Assembly (NCBI GenBank): GCA_945952245.1
Contig: CAMFHT010000004.1
Location: 1-40,485, forward strand
DNA: 40,485 nt
Origin: an uncultured Rhizobium sp.
GTDB taxonomy: Bacteria; Pseudomonadota; Alphaproteobacteria; Rhizobiales; Rhizobiaceae
Direction: 5' to 3'
Each line of letters begins with the position of its first letter. Position 1 is the first letter of the stretch. This document shows, piece after piece, positions 1,013-40,485 of the stretch. A model generated the notes under the pieces. That model ran no database searches, had not been told where the DNA came from, and saw only the letters and a program-made list of their open reading frames with translations. The translations under genes and the position numbers were made by a program.

Positions 1013-1989
1013 CGTCCATCCTGAAGCAGCGCGAGGTGCAGCTCGTCCTGGTCATTCTCGTGATGATCGCGCTGATCGCTCTCCGCTTCCCGTCCTTCGT
1101 GACGGCCGACAGTCTCGGCAACGTCTTCAACGACACCTCGATCCTCATCATCCTGGCACTCGGCCAGATGACCGTCATTCTCACCAAATGCGTCGATCTC
1201 TCGACCGCGGCGACGTTGGCGCTTTCCGGCATGGTCGCAGCCATGCTGAACAGCCTCCATCCGGACCTTCCCGTCATCGTGCTCATCGCCGTCGCCCTGC
1301 TGACGGGCGCCATCGCCGGCGCAATCAACGGGCTGATGGTCTGGAAGCTCGACATGCCGCCGATCGTGGTGACGCTCGGGACCATGACCATCTACCGCGG
1401 CATCATCTTCCTGATCTCAGGCGGCAAGTGGATCAACGCGCATGAGATGACCGATGCCTTCAAGGCCGTCCCGCGCGACGATTTCCTGGGCTTCCCGGTC
1501 TTGAGCTGGCTGGCGCTCGTCGTCATCGCGATCATGGCGGTGGCGCTGAAGCGGCTCGCCACGGGCCGGGCCTTCTATGCCGTCGGCGGCAACCCGCATG
1601 CGGCGGTCTATACGGGCATCGACGTCGGCAAGACGCGCTTCATCGCCTTCGTGATCTCGGGCACGCTGTCCGGCCTTGCAGGCTATCTCTGGATCGCCCG
1701 TTATGCCGTCGCCTATGTCGATATCGCCCTTGGCTTCGAGCTCGACGTGGTCGCCGCCTGCGTCATCGGGGGCATCTCGATCGCCGGTGGCATCGGCTCG
1801 GTGTACGGCGCGGTCCTCGGCTCCCTCTTCCTCGGCACGATCAAGAATGCGCTGCCTGTCATCAACATCTCGCCCTTCTGGCAGCTCGCCATTTCCGGGA
1901 CGGTGATCATCCTCGCGGTCGCCTTCAATGCACGCGCCGAGCGCCGCAAGGGCCGCGTCATCCTCAAGAAGGCGGAGGTGGCCGCATGA
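1009..1989 (+). CDS. rhaP: L-rhamnose ABC transporter permease
   Basis: Inner-membrane permease of the CUT2 (RbsC/AraH-like) family, about 326 aa, with many hydrophobic segments from residue 8 onward. It carries the family signatures GQMTVILTKCVDLSTAATLALSG and GGISIAGGIGSVYGAVLG. The ORF track extends upstream to 739, but that part is a shadow of rhaT. The start at 1009 (MTSILKQREV) overlaps the rhaT stop by four bases, as expected for translational coupling. It is expected to form a heterodimeric channel with rhaQ, the next gene. Substrate assignment comes from the operon. Confidence 0.87.
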   Translation: MTSILKQREVQLVLVILVMIALIALRFPSFVTADSLGNVFNDTSILIILALGQMTVILTKCVDLSTAATLALSGMVAAMLNSLHPDLPVIVLIAVALLTGAIAGAINGLMVWKLDMPPIVVTLGTMTIYRGIIFLISGGKWINAHEMTDAFKAVPRDDFLGFPVLSWLALVVIAIMAVALKRLATGRAFYAVGGNPHAAVYTGIDVGKTRFIAFVISGTLSGLAGYLWIARYAVAYVDIALGFELDVVAACVIGGISIAGGIGSVYGAVLGSLFLGTIKNALPVINISPFWQLAISGTVIILAVAFNARAERRKGRVILKKAEVAA

Positions 1990-32462: not shown

Positions 32463-33464
32463 TCAGGAATGCTGTTCGAGCGGGAAGGTGAGGCTGTAGG
32501 TGATCTCTTCCTCGGTCAACCTGTACTCCGCCTCGCCGCCCACCGAAGCCGGCACCACATGTTCGAGCACCGTGCTGCCGAAGTGCTTTCCATAGCCCTG
32601 GCCGCGTGTGGTGATGTCCTTCCACGTCGCGTTGAACGGCTCGCGCCATGTAAATCGCAGCAATTCACGCTCGCCCTCCTGAAGCCGCCTGCAGGTGATC
32701 GCGATCGGCGCTTCCCGGCTTTCGAAGATCGTGCCATGCGTGCTCGCATTGACGAAAAGCTCATGCAGGGCCAGACCAAGGTGCAGCGTCACGTTCGGCG
32801 ACAGCAGCACATTGTCGCCTGTGACCTCGAAGAGCGGGCGGTTGTCGGAGACCAGCCGGTCGATCTGCTGGTGAACGACGTCGAAGAAGTACGCGCCACG
32901 CCAGCGCGAGGCGGTGATGAGATCCTGCGACTTCGAGAGTGCGTGCACGCGGTCACGGAATTTCTTCAGGAACTCCTGAAGCGTCTGGGAGTGGCGTGCC
33001 GTCTGGGAAGCAATGCTCTGCACCACGGCCAGCATGTTCTTGGAGCGATGGCTGCCTTCCCGCTGCAGAGAGGTCAGCATCTGCTCCTGATTGCGCAGCC
33101 TGGTCACGTCCTCGATGCGGGTCTGGTAAAAATACTGGCCCGACGCATCGCCGACCCGGCTGATCGTAAACAGGAAGACTTGTTCGCTGACGGTCACCTC
33201 CAGCGTGCGTTCGACGCCCGTCGTTTCCAGATTGTGCTTGAGAGAAGAAAGCTTGGCCGCGAGTTCCGGCCCGAAGATGCCGGCATCCGTGACCGCGCCC
33301 GCGAGTGCCGACTGCCAGCAATCGGGCAGGTTGGCGATCAGCTGGTATTCCCAGGCTTTGTCCTGCAGGAGAATAGAACTTGCTGACCCCGAGAGAGCCA
33401 GGGTCAGCAAGTCGTTTCGGCCCGCTCCGCCAGGCGCGGGCTGAATCCAAAGAGCGCGGGTCAT
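32463..33464 (-). CDS. HWE/HisKA_2 sensor histidine kinase of the general stress response locus
   Basis: 333 aa. The N-terminal region (1-120) resembles a PAS-like sensor ending IEDVTRLRNQ. The phosphoacceptor helix REGSHRSKNMLAVVQSIASQ places H139. The ATPase part has LALHELFVNASTHGTIF (N-box) and FTWREPF. No membrane segments. It lies 47 bases downstream of phyR on the same strand, so it is probably co-transcribed and the cognate PhyK-type kinase or a negative-acting homologue. In S. meliloti a comparable kinase sits by rpoE2. Confidence 0.87.
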   Translation of the reverse strand: MTRALWIQPAPGGAGRNDLLTLALSGSASSILLQDKAWEYQLIANLPDCWQSALAGAVTDAGIFGPELAAKLSSLKHNLETTGVERTLEVTVSEQVFLFTISRVGDASGQYFYQTRIEDVTRLRNQEQMLTSLQREGSHRSKNMLAVVQSIASQTARHSQTLQEFLKKFRDRVHALSKSQDLITASRWRGAYFFDVVHQQIDRLVSDNRPLFEVTGDNVLLSPNVTLHLGLALHELFVNASTHGTIFESREAPIAITCRRLQEGERELLRFTWREPFNATWKDITTRGQGYGKHFGSTVLEHVVPASVGGEAEYRLTEEEITYSLTFPLEQHS

Positions 33465-33511: not shown

Positions 33512-34306
33512 TCAGGCGGGATTGGAGACACTCGCATTGAAGAACAGGGCCTGGCTGATCATCGCCTTCACCACGTCGGGGTTGAAGGGCTTGGTGACCA
33601 GGAAGGTCGGTTCCGGACGCTCGCCGGTCAGCAGGCGTTCCGGGAAGGCGGTGATGAAGATCACCGGAATGCTGGCTTCCTTGAGAATGTCGGAGATGGC
33701 GTCGAGGCCCGAGCTGCCGTCTGCGAGCTGGATGTCTGCAAGCACCATCTTCGGCTTGGTCTTGTGGAAGAGCTCGACCGCCTCCCGATGCGTGCGGGCG
33801 ATGCCGGTGACGAAATGGCCGAGCTCGTGCAGCATCTGCTCGATGTCCATCGCGATCAGAGGTTCGTCCTCGATGATCATGATGTCGGTGGCGATCTGCT
33901 CGGAAATCTCGCGGGAGGCGGCATCGAGCAGCGGCTTGACGCCGTCTTCGGTCACCTTCAGAATTTCGGCGGTTTCGCCAACGGTGAAACCCTCGACGGT
34001 GGTGAGCAGGAAGGCCTGCTTCGCCTTCGTCGGCAGCGATGCCAGATTGGCGGCAGCCCGCTTTTCCCATGCAAACGGCGAATCCATCTGGGGAATTTCT
34101 ATTTCAGCGGAACCAAATATAGTCGCGAAGAGTTGGTACAGAGCAACGCGGTCGCTCGACGCCTTCGGGAAGATGGAAATGTCAGCGATCAAGGCTTCCA
34201 ACGTCGCAGCGACATAGGCGTCCCCTGATGTCTGGGAACCGGTCACGCTACGGGCATATCGACGAAGGAGAGGTAGATGGGCGGCTATTCGAACCGATAG
34301 AGACAT
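33512..34306 (-). CDS. phyR: General stress response anti-anti-sigma regulator PhyR
   Basis: 264 aa, the standard PhyR layout. An N-terminal sigma-like domain (about 1-135, including LPTKAKQAFLLTTVEGFTVGE) mimics EcfG. A C-terminal receiver domain (IMIIEDEPLIAMD) has the phosphorylation site D191 in VLADIQLADG and the switch-region PEPTFLVTKPF. When phosphorylated, PhyR family members sequester NepR and free the sigma factor. It is divergent from nepR-ecfG, with its own EcfG promoter, so it is in a positive loop. Confidence 0.95.
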   Translation of the reverse strand: MSLSVRIAAHLPLLRRYARSVTGSQTSGDAYVAATLEALIADISIFPKASSDRVALYQLFATIFGSAEIEIPQMDSPFAWEKRAAANLASLPTKAKQAFLLTTVEGFTVGETAEILKVTEDGVKPLLDAASREISEQIATDIMIIEDEPLIAMDIEQMLHELGHFVTGIARTHREAVELFHKTKPKMVLADIQLADGSSGLDAISDILKEASIPVIFITAFPERLLTGERPEPTFLVTKPFNPDVVKAMISQALFFNASVSNPA

Positions 34307-34353: not shown

Positions 34354-34378
34354 AACGCGCCGCGAAAAAATAAGTTCC
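34354..34378 (-). promoter_or_regulatory. EcfG-type promoter of phyR
   Basis: On the minus strand GGAAC (34378-34374) is followed after 16 bases by CGTT (34357-34354), an exact match to the rhizobial general-stress sigma consensus. The -10 lies 48 bases before the phyR ATG. Confidence 0.8.
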
Positions 34379-34386
34379 GTGGGTGT

Positions 34387-34411
34387 GGAACTTTTTCTTG
34401 TGCGCGGCATT
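34387..34411 (+). promoter_or_regulatory. EcfG-type promoter of nepR-ecfG
   Basis: GGAAC (34387-34391), 16 bases, then CATT (34408-34411), one mismatch to CGTT but keeping the invariant TT. Only 8 bases separate it from the phyR -35, so the two polymerase sites lie back to back. It is 36 bases from the nepR ATG. Confidence 0.75.
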
Positions 34412-34446: not shown

Positions 34447-34650
34447 ATGCACGAAAATCCCAAAGAGGCTGATGAAAATGTTCCAGCGCATGCGGAATCT
34501 CACCTCATAGACCCCAACTCACTGGTGTCCCGGGTCCTCCGGGAACTTTACGACAGCGTCCAGAATGAGGCCATTCCGGACCGCTTTCTGGACCTTCTGG
34601 AAAAACTCGATATGGCGGAAAGCGCTGCCAAGACGGTCGATAGCCAATGA
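34447..34650 (+). CDS. nepR: Anti-sigma factor NepR
   Basis: 67-aa anti-sigma factor that holds EcfG inactive until phospho-PhyR binds it. The conserved NepR core is visible as SRVLRELYDSVQNEAIPDRFLDLLEKLD (residues about 28-55). The ORF track begins upstream at 34330, but the EcfG promoter lies within that extension, so ATG 34447 is the start. The stop overlaps the ecfG ATG by four bases, coupling the pair. Confidence 0.92.
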   Translation: MHENPKEADENVPAHAESHLIDPNSLVSRVLRELYDSVQNEAIPDRFLDLLEKLDMAESAAKTVDSQ

Positions 34651-35222
34651 ATGAAACCAGTGAATCCGACCAGCGCCGTTTCAAGCGGGAGCTGCTGGCA
34701 GCCTTGCCCAATCTCCGCGCCTTCGCCGTGTCGCTCGTCGGGCGCCATGACCGCGCGGACGATCTGGTCCAGGATACGATCATGAAGGCCTGGGCAAAGC
34801 AGGAGAGCTTCGAGATCGGCACGAACATCAAGGCCTGGCTGATCAAGATCCTCTTGAACAGCTTCTACAGCCAGATGCGCAAGAACGGCCGCGAGGTGCA
34901 GGACAGCGACGGCATCCTGACGGAGCGCCTCTCCGTGCATCCCGCCCAGCACGGCGCGCTCGATCTCCAGGACTTCCGCAATGCGCTGAACACGCTGCCG
35001 CCGGACCAGAGGGAAGCCATCATTCTCGTCGGGGCTTCCGGTTTTTCCTATGAAGAAGCGGCAGAAATCTGCAATTGCGCCGTCGGCACGATCAAGAGCC
35101 GCGTCAGCCGCGCCCGCCAGCGCCTCCAGGAAATTCTCGGCGTCACGGGCGAGGGCGATTTCGGCCCCGATGCTGCCTCCACCGCCGTGACATCCCGCCC
35201 CGTCACCAGCACCAGCTTCTGA
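34647..35222 (+). CDS. ecfG: ECF sigma factor EcfG (RpoE2-type) of the general stress response
   Basis: 191-aa sigma factor. Region 2 is LPNLRAFAVSLVGRHDRADD, then LVQDTIMKAWAKQESFEIGTN; region 4 is LNTLPPDQREAIILVGASGFSYEE, then AAEICNCAVGTIKSRVSRAR. These fit the EcfG/ECF15 family. It directs polymerase to GGAAC-N16/17-CGTT promoters, of which four good candidates are present in this window. The C-terminus is a Ser/Thr-rich tail of about 25 residues. ATGA overlap with nepR. Confidence 0.95.
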   Translation: MNETSESDQRRFKRELLAALPNLRAFAVSLVGRHDRADDLVQDTIMKAWAKQESFEIGTNIKAWLIKILLNSFYSQMRKNGREVQDSDGILTERLSVHPAQHGALDLQDFRNALNTLPPDQREAIILVGASGFSYEEAAEICNCAVGTIKSRVSRARQRLQEILGVTGEGDFGPDAASTAVTSRPVTSTSF

Positions 35223-35258
35223 CGGCCAGATATTCCGAAATAGCCATGAGAACTCATC

Positions 35259-35299
35259 CGCCCGGCGCGGACGCAGGATAACTGCGTCCGCGCCGGGCG
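35259..35299 (+). terminator. 18-bp GC-rich hairpin between convergent ecfG and hybrid kinase
   Basis: CGCCCGGCGCGGACGCAG pairs perfectly with CTGCGTCCGCGCCGGGCG around GATAA. TTAT follows on the plus strand. It is the strongest hairpin in the window and lies between two convergent genes, so it probably ends both transcripts. Confidence 0.75.
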
Positions 35300-35319
35300 T
35301 TATATCTGGTAAGGCCTAT

Positions 35320-38300: not shown

Positions 38301-38610
38301 TGACTTTCTCGTAGAAGCCGGCCAGCTCCGGCCAGCTCGCCGAGATTGGTTCTCCCGCAACAGCGGGATGGCGGTCACCCGCGAGAGGGCGGAAGGCATC
38401 GTTGTAGATAACCTTGGCATTCCGTCCCCAGAGGATCATCATCGGAACCGACGTCCCCAGCAGCAGTGCCGAACTGGACTTTAGCAGCGGGTGCCAGCTG
38501 TCCCTCGGTCCTATTCCTGTCCTCGACCAGTCGAGGCGCGAAACGGGAGGCTCCACCGGCCCCTTCTCCCCCGTGTGATCCGGGTCGGGCGGTGTCATCT
38601 TGAAATTCAT
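35320..38610 (-). CDS. PAS-rich hybrid sensor histidine kinase with two receiver domains
   Basis: About 1096 aa, soluble. Four PAS regions (about 45-160, 170-285, 300-410, 415-540) are followed by the HisKA dimerisation helix with H585 (GGIAHDFNNLLQ), then HATPase (NLAINARDAM; GTGLGLSMVYGFVKQSGG). Two receiver domains follow, with D877 (LLFSDMIMPG) and D1031 (VLMADFGLPD). The first receiver is close to the FixL/BlrA hybrid-kinase type. The start is ATG 38610, preceded by GGGAAGG; the ORF track start at 38694 is upstream of the EcfG promoter. That promoter indicates induction by general stress. The output partner is unknown. Confidence 0.9.
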   Translation of the reverse strand: MNFKMTPPDPDHTGEKGPVEPPVSRLDWSRTGIGPRDSWHPLLKSSSALLLGTSVPMMILWGRNAKVIYNDAFRPLAGDRHPAVAGEPISASWPELAGFYEKVMTSIFEGRSLSYQDRPHRVERDGKRQDYFLSLDFSPLLDENGTIHGALAIIRDTTESARLQQRLRIAQAIGGIGTFEWFPETGHMLASEEFRQIWGLGPDEPVTDTKLLQLLHPDDRMRMIEKLQKYNETNPLDYIEYRRIDPHTGETHWIARRGEEVTAPDSDIRRFVGVCYDITARKHAERQMIEHESRWRNLFEQMQEGFFIGDAIRDGTGRVVNFRIEEYNPAFAQQAGIMPSGDGRPLAAAEALPDLGPPVIDTFAQVLQTGEAADFEWQMKAPEGRWYEARVHRVDNDRFAVLMLDVTARKKAEQTILESEAKFRLLAQSMPNHVWTARGNGEIDWFNERAYDFAGLPKGSLDGENWSRMVHPDDLSRIVESWEAAVEHGHLYKGELRLRRRDGVYRWHIVRAVPVRNRMGDIKRWIGTNTDIDDQKSAEAALADLAATLEQRVEARTAELLRTQDALRQSQKMEAIGNLTGGIAHDFNNLLQVISGNLHLIAKDMAGHPKLEERLQNAIKGVTRGAKLASQLLAFGRRQPLAPKVINIGRLINNMDDILHRALGEAVTVETVIEDNLWSTEIDPGNVENAILNLAINARDAMDDSGHVVIEVRNVLIDAYSVNHRVDLTAGQYVMIAVKDSGCGMSQEVMEKVFEPFFTTKPEGKGTGLGLSMVYGFVKQSGGHVIIESQPGQGTTIRMYLPRAAGGEDAETASESAPPPIRGGSETILVAEDDDAVRDTVVATLSDLGYRVLRAKDGPGALTVLESGARIDLLFSDMIMPGALKSDDLVRRARQYQPDIAVLFTSGYADGSGVKMPEEQGIELLAKPYSREALARKIRVALDNAGKTGAGSEEANPEGLAPSTAALPDNIANAGVSASGPVVLLCEDDYLIRLTTAEILEDEGYTVLEAGSGSEALSLLRQYRVDVLMADFGLPDMTGVELANRAREMRPALPLLFATGHVQVENLPAGPTRQVTKPFADTVLLGALADLLQPVA

Positions 38611-38653
38611 TGAGGCAAGCCTTCCCCCGGCTGAAGTCACAATTTTGGAAGTG

Positions 38654-38678
38654 AACGCACGAGGCGCGCTAAGGTTCC
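38654..38678 (-). promoter_or_regulatory. EcfG-type promoter of the hybrid kinase
   Basis: Minus-strand GGAAC (38678-38674), 16 bases, CGTT (38657-38654): exact consensus. The -10 is 44 bases before the kinase ATG. Confidence 0.78.
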
Positions 38679-38727
38679 CGACCGACCCCGACATTTTCGC
38701 TGCGTCGAATTGTGCCTCTCATCTCCC

Positions 38728-38753
38728 GGAACCGCAGCGACGCGCAGCGCGTT
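38728..38753 (+). promoter_or_regulatory. EcfG-type promoter of the BON-mpg-iron permease operon
   Basis: GGAAC (38728-38732), 17 bases, CGTT (38750-38753): exact consensus, 53 bases before the ATG of the BON-like gene. It lies back to back with the hybrid kinase promoter, 49 bases apart. Confidence 0.78.
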
Positions 38754-38805
38754 TTCGCCCGGGCCTCCTTTGTGGCCCTGTACCAGGGCGGAAGGGACGA
38801 AGACG

Positions 38806-39081
38806 ATGATTTTCAAGGAAAGAAGCTTTCGCGGTGAGATCCCTCTCGACGAAACCATGAAGACCACGCCCAGCGCAGAGGCCGATCTCGAGACGAGTGC
38901 GGCTGAATTCCTGGCCTCGCTTGGCGCGCTCGACGTGACGCAGGTCTCCGTCGTCGCGATCGATGGCGGTCTCGTCCTTTCCGGCTTCGTGCCGTCGGAG
39001 CACGAGGCTGTGGGTGTGGAGGCATCGCTCAAGGAGCACTTTCCGGAGGTTGCGGTCGAGAATCGGCTGCAGGTTGGCTAG
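38806..39081 (+). CDS. Small BON-like domain protein
   Basis: 91 aa, cytoplasmic, no signal peptide. Residues 30-90 (LASLGALDVTQVSVVAIDGG, then LVLSGFVPSEHEAV and VENRLQVG) have the alternating helix-strand pattern of BON domains, which bind membranes or phospholipids and occur in osmotically induced proteins. The match is by pattern, not by a strong motif. ATG 38806 has GAAGGGACG upstream; the longer ORF includes the promoter. First gene of an EcfG-controlled operon, one base before mpg. Confidence 0.65.
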   Translation: MIFKERSFRGEIPLDETMKTTPSAEADLETSAAEFLASLGALDVTQVSVVAIDGGLVLSGFVPSEHEAVGVEASLKEHFPEVAVENRLQVG

Positions 39082-39082
39082 C

Positions 39083-39697
39083 ATGTCTGCGACAGAAGCC
39101 CGCGATGTCAGGGCTTTCTGTAGCCGCGATGCCGTCAGCGTCGCCCGTGACCTCATCGGCTGCTCGCTCCTCTTTGCGGGTGCGGGTGGACGGATCGTGG
39201 AAACGGAAGCCTATACGGTGGATGATCCCGCTTCCCACAGCTTCCGCGGGATGACGTCCGCCAACGCCGCCATGTTCGGGCCGCCCGGCACCAGCTACGT
39301 CTACCGCATCTACGGCCTGCACCAATGTCTCAACGTGGTGTGTGCGGGGGCGAGCGCCGTCCTCATCCGGGCGCTCGAGCCGACCGAAGGCGTGGCTGAA
39401 ATGTCGGCGCGCCGCGGACCGGTGCCTGTGACAAGGCTCTGCCGCGGTCCCGGCAACCTCTGCGCGGCCCTTGGCGTCAACCTCGGTCACAACGGCCTGC
39501 CGCTCGATGCGTTTCCGTTTCATCTTGCTCCAGGCGAAGGACCTGACGTCGAACTGATCGAAGGGCCGCGAATCGGGATTTCCAGGAACACCGATATAGC
39601 CTGGCGCTTCGGCCTCGCCGGATCGGCGTGCCTAAGCCGCCCGTTTCCCCAAACACGCAGCAGATCCCTCAGAATTAGGGAAGGAACTCCATCATGA
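39083..39697 (+). CDS. mpg: DNA-3-methyladenine glycosylase (AAG/MPG type)
   Basis: Base-excision enzyme of 204 aa removing alkylated purines. The catalytic Glu is in GRIVETEAY, followed by HSFRGMTSANAAMFGPPGTS and the intercalating YVYRIYGLHQCLN. LCRGPGNLCAALGV is the family C-terminal block. ORF track start 38963 lies in the preceding gene; ATG 39083 is the natural start, one base after the BON-like stop. Placement in an EcfG-driven operon makes DNA repair part of the stress response here. ATGA overlap with the next gene. Confidence 0.93.
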   Translation: MSATEARDVRAFCSRDAVSVARDLIGCSLLFAGAGGRIVETEAYTVDDPASHSFRGMTSANAAMFGPPGTSYVYRIYGLHQCLNVVCAGASAVLIRALEPTEGVAEMSARRGPVPVTRLCRGPGNLCAALGVNLGHNGLPLDAFPFHLAPGEGPDVELIEGPRIGISRNTDIAWRFGLAGSACLSRPFPQTRSRSLRIREGTPS

Positions 39698-40155
39698 GTA
39701 CCCATCAGACCGCCACTGGCGACAGGAAATCAAGGGTCAACTACTTCGTCCTTTTCTCCACCGCCGTGTCCGATTGGGCCGGCAAACCGATCACCTTCGC
39801 GCTCGCAGTTGCGGGCATCCTGGTCTGGGCGATCCTCGGGCCCTTTCTCAACTACTCGGAAAGCTGGCAGCTGGTGGTCAACACTGCAACCACCATCATC
39901 ACATTCCTGATGATTTTCGTGCTGCAGAATTCTCAGAACCGCGACGCCAAGGCGCTTCAGGTGAAGCTCGACGAGCTGATCCTCACCAATGCGCGGGCGG
40001 AGAACTGCTACATCGGCGCCGAGGCGCTCGATGAACCGGAACTGCGCCGCCTGCGCGAAATGCTGGATGCCAAGCTGAAGGCGGTGGAGGACGCCGTGCG
40101 CAACGACGAGAACCCGCAGCCCGAGATCGACGAGATCAAGCAAATGGTCCGCTGA
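39694..40155 (+). CDS. Low-affinity iron permease family protein
   Basis: 153-aa inner-membrane protein of the PF04120 family. It has two hydrophobic segments: PITFALAVAGILVWAILGPF and, after SWQLVVNTATT, IITFLMIFVLQ, followed by the conserved NSQNRDAKALQVKLDELI. The soluble C-terminus is helical and acidic. The family is named from yeast Fet4, but bacterial members are not proven iron carriers, and many are general-stress regulon members. Coupled to mpg by a four-base overlap. Confidence 0.85.
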   Translation: MSTHQTATGDRKSRVNYFVLFSTAVSDWAGKPITFALAVAGILVWAILGPFLNYSESWQLVVNTATTIITFLMIFVLQNSQNRDAKALQVKLDELILTNARAENCYIGAEALDEPELRRLREMLDAKLKAVEDAVRNDENPQPEIDEIKQMVR

Positions 40156-40190: not shown

Positions 40191-40216
40191 GGAACCTTTC
40201 ATGGCGCCGATTGGTT
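40191..40216 (+). promoter_or_regulatory. Possible EcfG-type promoter of the terminal gene
   Basis: GGAAC (40191-40195), 17 bases, GGTT (40213-40216), keeping the TT but with one mismatch. 51 bases before the start of the truncated gene at 40268. Weaker than the four others. Confidence 0.5.
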
Positions 40217-40267: not shown

Positions 40268-40485
40268 ATGAAGAAATTTGCGCTCATCGCCGCTCTGCTT
40301 GCCCTTTCTCCCACGCTCGCCGTGGCGCAGACCTCGGGTACGGACGCCGAAACCCCGGCCATCGCGACGCCTGACAGCAATAATCCCGATGCCCCCGTGC
40401 CCGGCAAGAACAGCTTCACCGAGAACCAGGCCCGCGAGCGCATCGCCGATGCCACGGATCTCGGACAGTTTGCCCGACGCCACCG
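40268..40485 (+). CDS. Putative secreted protein, 3' truncated
   Basis: Starts MKKFALIAALLALSPTLAVA, a clear Sec signal peptide with a cleavage site near residue 21. It continues Thr/Asp/Pro-rich, then SFTENQARERIADATDLGQF, and runs off the window, so it is missing from the ORF track. GTGAGGA precedes the ATG. No family is recognisable from 72 residues; a small periplasmic stress protein is plausible given the EcfG-like promoter. Confidence 0.75.
   Translation, partial: MKKFALIAALLALSPTLAVAQTSGTDAETPAIATPDSNNPDAPVPGKNSFTENQARERIADATDLGQFARRH

Follow-up and report, generated by a model that had tools for sequence, protein, structure and literature searches.

Putative back-to-back EcfG promoters between a hybrid histidine kinase and a BON-mpg-permease operon in an uncultured Rhizobium

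Introduction

In Rhizobium etli, EcfG1 promoters carry the motif GGAAC-N16-CGTT, and TcrY adjoins phyR (PMC3892343). In Sphingomonas melonis Fr1, EcfG targets include Ku along with numerous small stress proteins, and an orphan hybrid kinase dependent on EcfG has been reported (PMC6599016). The main activators of PhyR are HWE/HisKA2 kinases (PMC6599016). In Caulobacter crescentus, the kinase LovK and the receiver LovR are under the control of the stress sigma factor SigT and damp the response, for which a negative feedback loop has been proposed (PMC5964349).

Here, we analyzed a stretch of 40,485 nucleotides from an uncultured Rhizobium sp. (the window), which contains phyR, nepR and ecfG and, 4 kb from ecfG, a gap with two EcfG-type motifs (Table 1). 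The predicted promoters are of the same type as in the R. etli EcfG1 regulon, and, as in S. melonis, a Ku gene and a hybrid kinase are among the predicted targets. Unlike in these two regulons, a CckA-class hybrid kinase stands beside ecfG itself and back-to-back with a BON-mpg-permease operon. LovK is likewise a kinase under a stress sigma factor, but it is a HisKA2 kinase with a separate LovR, whereas the kinase described here is of the HisKA type with two fused receivers.

Materials and methods

The genome assembly is 77% complete. Exact motif matches were counted in the whole genome and compared with a reversed-pattern control. For the analysis of placement, stretches of about 1–3.5 kb around the motif matches and around part of the control matches (41 of 69 classified) were used. 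Coding and non-coding calls came from a simple gene finder based on codon usage, for which the window and three related loci served as training set. A match was assigned to a promoter position when it lay within 250 bp upstream of a gene on the same strand. Five genomes of the genus were compared at the locus: the window's own, G001 (L142), G003 (L143), G002 (L152), and G004 (L151). The matches obtained with L152 of G002 are the same as those of L019, a contig of an uncultured Rhizobium MAG.

Table 1 Features of the locus, with positions in the window
Feature	Position	Strand	Remarks
HWE-family histidine kinase	32463..33464	-	directly downstream of phyR; PF07536, E 2.7e-22
PhyR anti-anti-sigma response regulator	33512..34306	-	
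First back-to-back EcfG pair	34354..34411		phyR side GGAAC-N16-CGTT, 34354-34378 (-); nepR-ecfG side GGAAC-N16-CATT, 34387-34411 (+)
NepR anti-sigma factor	34447..34650	+	PF18557
EcfG sigma factor	34647..35222	+	4 kb from gap
18-bp hairpin between convergent ecfG and kinase	35255..35300	.	fold of 35236-35315, -50 kcal/mol
PAS-rich hybrid histidine kinase, 1096 aa	35320..38610	-	PAS domains, HisKA/HATPase_c, two receiver domains (Pfam); convergent with ecfG
Predicted kinase-side EcfG-type promoter, GGAAC-N16-CGTT	38654..38678	-	exact match; 43 bases from -10 to kinase ATG at 38610
Predicted BON-side EcfG-type promoter, GGAAC-N17-CGTT	38728..38753	+	exact match; 52 bases from -10 to BON ATG at 38806
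Small BON-domain protein, 91 aa	38806..39081	+	first gene of divergent operon; 24.6 bits, just below Pfam cut-off 27
Methylpurine-DNA glycosylase (Mpg)	39083..39697	+	PF02245, E 2.3e-57
Low-affinity iron permease family protein	39694..40155	+	PF04120, E 3.5e-43
Probable further EcfG promoter, GGAAC-N17-GGTT	40191..40216	+	ahead of gene at 40268

Results

Two outward motifs in one gap

The gap between the hybrid kinase and the BON-mpg-iron permease operon spans 195 bp (38611-38805), and both of its motifs point outward. A sequence-only reading of the window had described two exact motifs here, and both are present exactly as written. They consist of a GGAAC -35 box, a spacer of 16–17 bp and a CGTT-like -10 element. 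Each lies upstream of a gene in the right orientation with a plausible leader, and each is conserved at orthologous genes. With exact matches occurring genome-wide at 9.5e-6 per base per strand, a 195-bp stretch should hold 0.0018 outward matches on any one strand, and the joint chance of both outward matches in one such gap is ~3e-6. For the genome as a whole, 0.05 outward pairs spaced within 150 bp are expected. The gap holds one, and a second is found on contig 258 (L203:1812-1836 (-) and 1894-1918 (+)) with a Ku gene behind the rightward motif. A search of the gap for a sigma-70-like promoter found none.

The kinase frame is open up to an alternative ATG at 38694, which would place the kinase-side motif within the gene. 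We prefer the shorter start at 38610, without regarding it as proven, because homologues begin at a similar distance ahead of the first conserved segment. The BON start at 38806 is supported by its orthologues, which begin with MIFKER.

Genome-wide count and placement

The raw motif count proves little because 77 exact matches barely exceed the 69 of the reversed control. In contrast, 43 of the 77 motif matches are in a promoter position, compared with 5 of 41 control matches (p about 2e-6), and 52/77 are non-coding, compared with 12/41 (p 7e-5). At the control rate, about 9 of the 43 promoter-placed matches are expected by chance; therefore, some entries in this list are false. The sequence-only reading had proposed a genome-wide scan, for which placement turns out to be informative and the count is not. 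It had also argued that two pairs only 4 kb apart support the motif. Placement and conservation indicate that the motif is real, but with these counts, proximity is a weak argument by itself. The first pair had been given with CGTT on both sides, which does not hold as the nepR-ecfG arm ends in CATT.

The genes behind other promoter-placed motifs include those for Ku, uracil-DNA glycosylase (UDG), universal stress protein (Usp), a KGG repeat protein, DJ-1/PfpI, Hva1, an M48 peptidase, phospholipase D, and a nucleotidyl transferase. This gene company fits the character expected of a general stress (EcfG) regulon.

The phyR-nepR-ecfG locus

In the phyR-nepR gaps of 75 Rhizobiales loci, the nepR-ecfG arm ends in CATT in 70 of 78 matches, and the phyR arm ends in CGTT in 73 of 76. 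The two GGAAC boxes of this pair are 7–10 bp apart in 71 of the 75 loci; hence, two polymerases may not fit simultaneously. The HWE kinase occupies the same position beside phyR as TcrY in R. etli and is likely the canonical PhyR kinase. The hairpin at the other end of ecfG is probably a bidirectional terminator shared with the hybrid kinase gene.

Conservation in related genomes

In G001 and G003, ecfG faces the kinase, the divergent BON-mpg-permease-PepSY set is present, and both exact outward motifs are kept. The counterparts of the kinase-side motif are at L142 2793-2817 (+) and L143 9477-9501 (-). Those of the BON/permease-side motif are at L142 2730-2754, L143 9542-9566, L152 1811-1835, and L151 7502-7526. 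The gap of the window aligns with the gaps of G001 and G003 no better than shuffled sequence does. Thus, the motifs were retained while the surrounding DNA changed. A DNA similarity search with the gap across the genus gave nothing useful beyond the window itself. G002 and G004 are without the kinase and mpg at the locus, and an exact motif is still found ahead of their BON/permease genes, the BON match in G004 being weak. In total, the BON/permease-side motif is present in 5/5 genomes and the kinase-side motif in 3/5.

From motif identity, geometry, genome-wide promoter placement, conservation, and stress-gene company, both gap motifs are very probably EcfG promoters. On the same well-supported basis, we consider it highly likely that both transcripts belong to the stress regulon, as had been proposed from the window alone for the kinase and the repair operon. 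A second sigma factor recognizing the same motif may exist in this 77% complete genome.

The BON-mpg-permease operon

The BON orthologues in L142 and L143 score above the Pfam cut-off. BON was also considered as a family-wide marker and rejected as too weak. A literature search for mpg under EcfG found no report. The motif downstream of the permease gene precedes a gene whose orthologue in L143 matches PepSY_2. GGAAC-N16/17-GGTT is also found ahead of the orthologues of this gene (L142 1254-1278, L143 10987-11012, L151 6609-6633).

The hybrid kinase

The HisKA match of the kinase is slightly under the Pfam cut-off (25.5 vs 26.9). Among solved structures, its core is closest to CckA (5idj, E 1.4e-48; 5idm is named CckA), and this CckA-like HisKA-type core with a receiver places it in the CckA class. 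A Pfam search of the kinase for an HWE_HK or HisKA_2 domain gave no match, and it is not of the PhyK/Pak type. It differs from CckA in its several PAS domains, its two receivers, its predicted stress promoter, and its absence from the locus in some genomes of the genus. Hence, its core resembles CckA, but the protein is not the cell-cycle CckA itself.

The core is 79–84% identical to the G001 and G003 kinases, whereas the N-terminal 160 residues are only 30–34% identical, which indicates divergence in sensing but not in the kinase core. The window's kinase has an additional PAS segment (about residues 165–285) that is missing in G001 and G003 and present in two kinases from another genus (L255, L256). 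In the second receiver (REC2), the window has FATGHV, with a partial likeness to the FATGUY of phosphorelay receivers. The orthologues in G001 and G003 have LATGHV and IATGHV; thus, this resemblance is not kept.

The possibility that kinases of this family generally carry an upstream EcfG motif was considered and rejected because exact same-strand motifs close upstream occur in a few relatives only, e.g., L104/L148 and L265. A possible motif upstream of the L119 kinase may fall inside the frame.

An oxidoreductase gene at the kinase-side promoter

In G001 and G003, the kinase and the kinase-side promoter are separated by a gene for an FAD-dependent oxidoreductase (L142 2871-4145; L143 8156-9430, minus strand). 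Hence, the promoter there probably drives an oxidoreductase-kinase unit. The gene is absent from the locus in the window, where the kinase is directly behind the promoter. A search for a copy elsewhere in the 77% complete genome found no close one, only relatives with 26% identity. The gene may have been lost in the window's genome or gained in G001 and G003.

Discussion

The identity, placement, and conservation of the two gap promoters can be read directly from the DNA, and from these we infer EcfG-driven transcription on both sides. Under stress, PhyR would be activated and NepR drawn off EcfG. RNA polymerase with EcfG would then transcribe the hybrid kinase leftwards and the BON-mpg-iron permease operon rightwards from two independent promoters. 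EcfG would simultaneously serve roughly 30–40 other promoters, including those of Ku and uracil-DNA glycosylase. In the simplest view, the kinase would be one of the induced outputs, sensing some condition during stress and passing a signal via its two receivers to a partner.

If both motifs had arisen by chance in GC-rich DNA and neither site was a promoter, a genome total near that of the reversed control would be expected, as is the case. This explanation is contradicted by conservation, as two diverged genomes retain both motifs in the expected place and orientation. The joint probability of the pair in one gap and the strong enrichment in promoter position also argue against it, and we regard it as highly improbable. 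A somewhat less remote but still unlikely explanation is that only the BON-mpg side works as an EcfG promoter. The kinase-side motif would then be left over from the promoter of an FAD-oxidoreductase gene that has been lost, and the kinase would be driven otherwise. The position of this gene behind the promoter in G001 and G003, its absence in the window, and the wider retention of the BON/permease-side motif agree with such a relic. However, the kinase-side motif still matches the consensus exactly, its distance from the kinase start is normal, and the gap revealed no sigma-70-like promoter.

Compatible with an EcfG-induced kinase, but doubtful, is an additional role of this kinase as a feedback component, an idea raised in the sequence-only reading. 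The kinase would add phosphate to PhyR or remove it, either directly or with a single-domain receiver or the HWE kinase as intermediary. The kinase adjoins ecfG in 3/5 genomes of the genus, and its own REC2 has some likeness to phosphorelay receivers. There are also precedents: LovK/LovR in Caulobacter, the classical HisKA kinase CC2874, which phosphorylates the hub MrrA (PMC5964349), and the EcfG-dependent orphan hybrid kinase of S. melonis. On the other hand, the core of the kinase is of the HisKA/CckA-like and not the HWE/HisKA2 type, an HWE kinase is already present beside phyR, and the hybrid kinase is missing at the locus in 2/5 genomes. Furthermore, the REC2 motif differs in the G001 and G003 orthologues, and most of the related family kinases examined are without an exact EcfG motif just upstream. 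We therefore propose only tentatively that, in one rhizobial genus, a CckA-class hybrid kinase beside ecfG could be an EcfG-controlled node, outside the HWE/HisKA2 class, which feeds or drains phosphate of the PhyR pathway via its receivers. If this were true, a wider set of kinase classes would act on the pathway.

As an EcfG-dependent hybrid kinase is already known from S. melonis (PMC6599016), the present one would be a new case of a known type of regulation. The predicted regulon ties base-excision repair (Mpg, UDG) and end-joining (Ku) to one stress switch and names a putatively stress-induced hybrid kinase as a candidate actor on PhyR. The scan also provides a list, derived from sequence, of probable EcfG promoters in the genome of an uncultured rhizobium. 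At two sites (L155:955-980 (-) and L212:901-927), GGAACG...CGTTCC can be read as an exact EcfG motif on either strand, with a two-base offset between the two readings.
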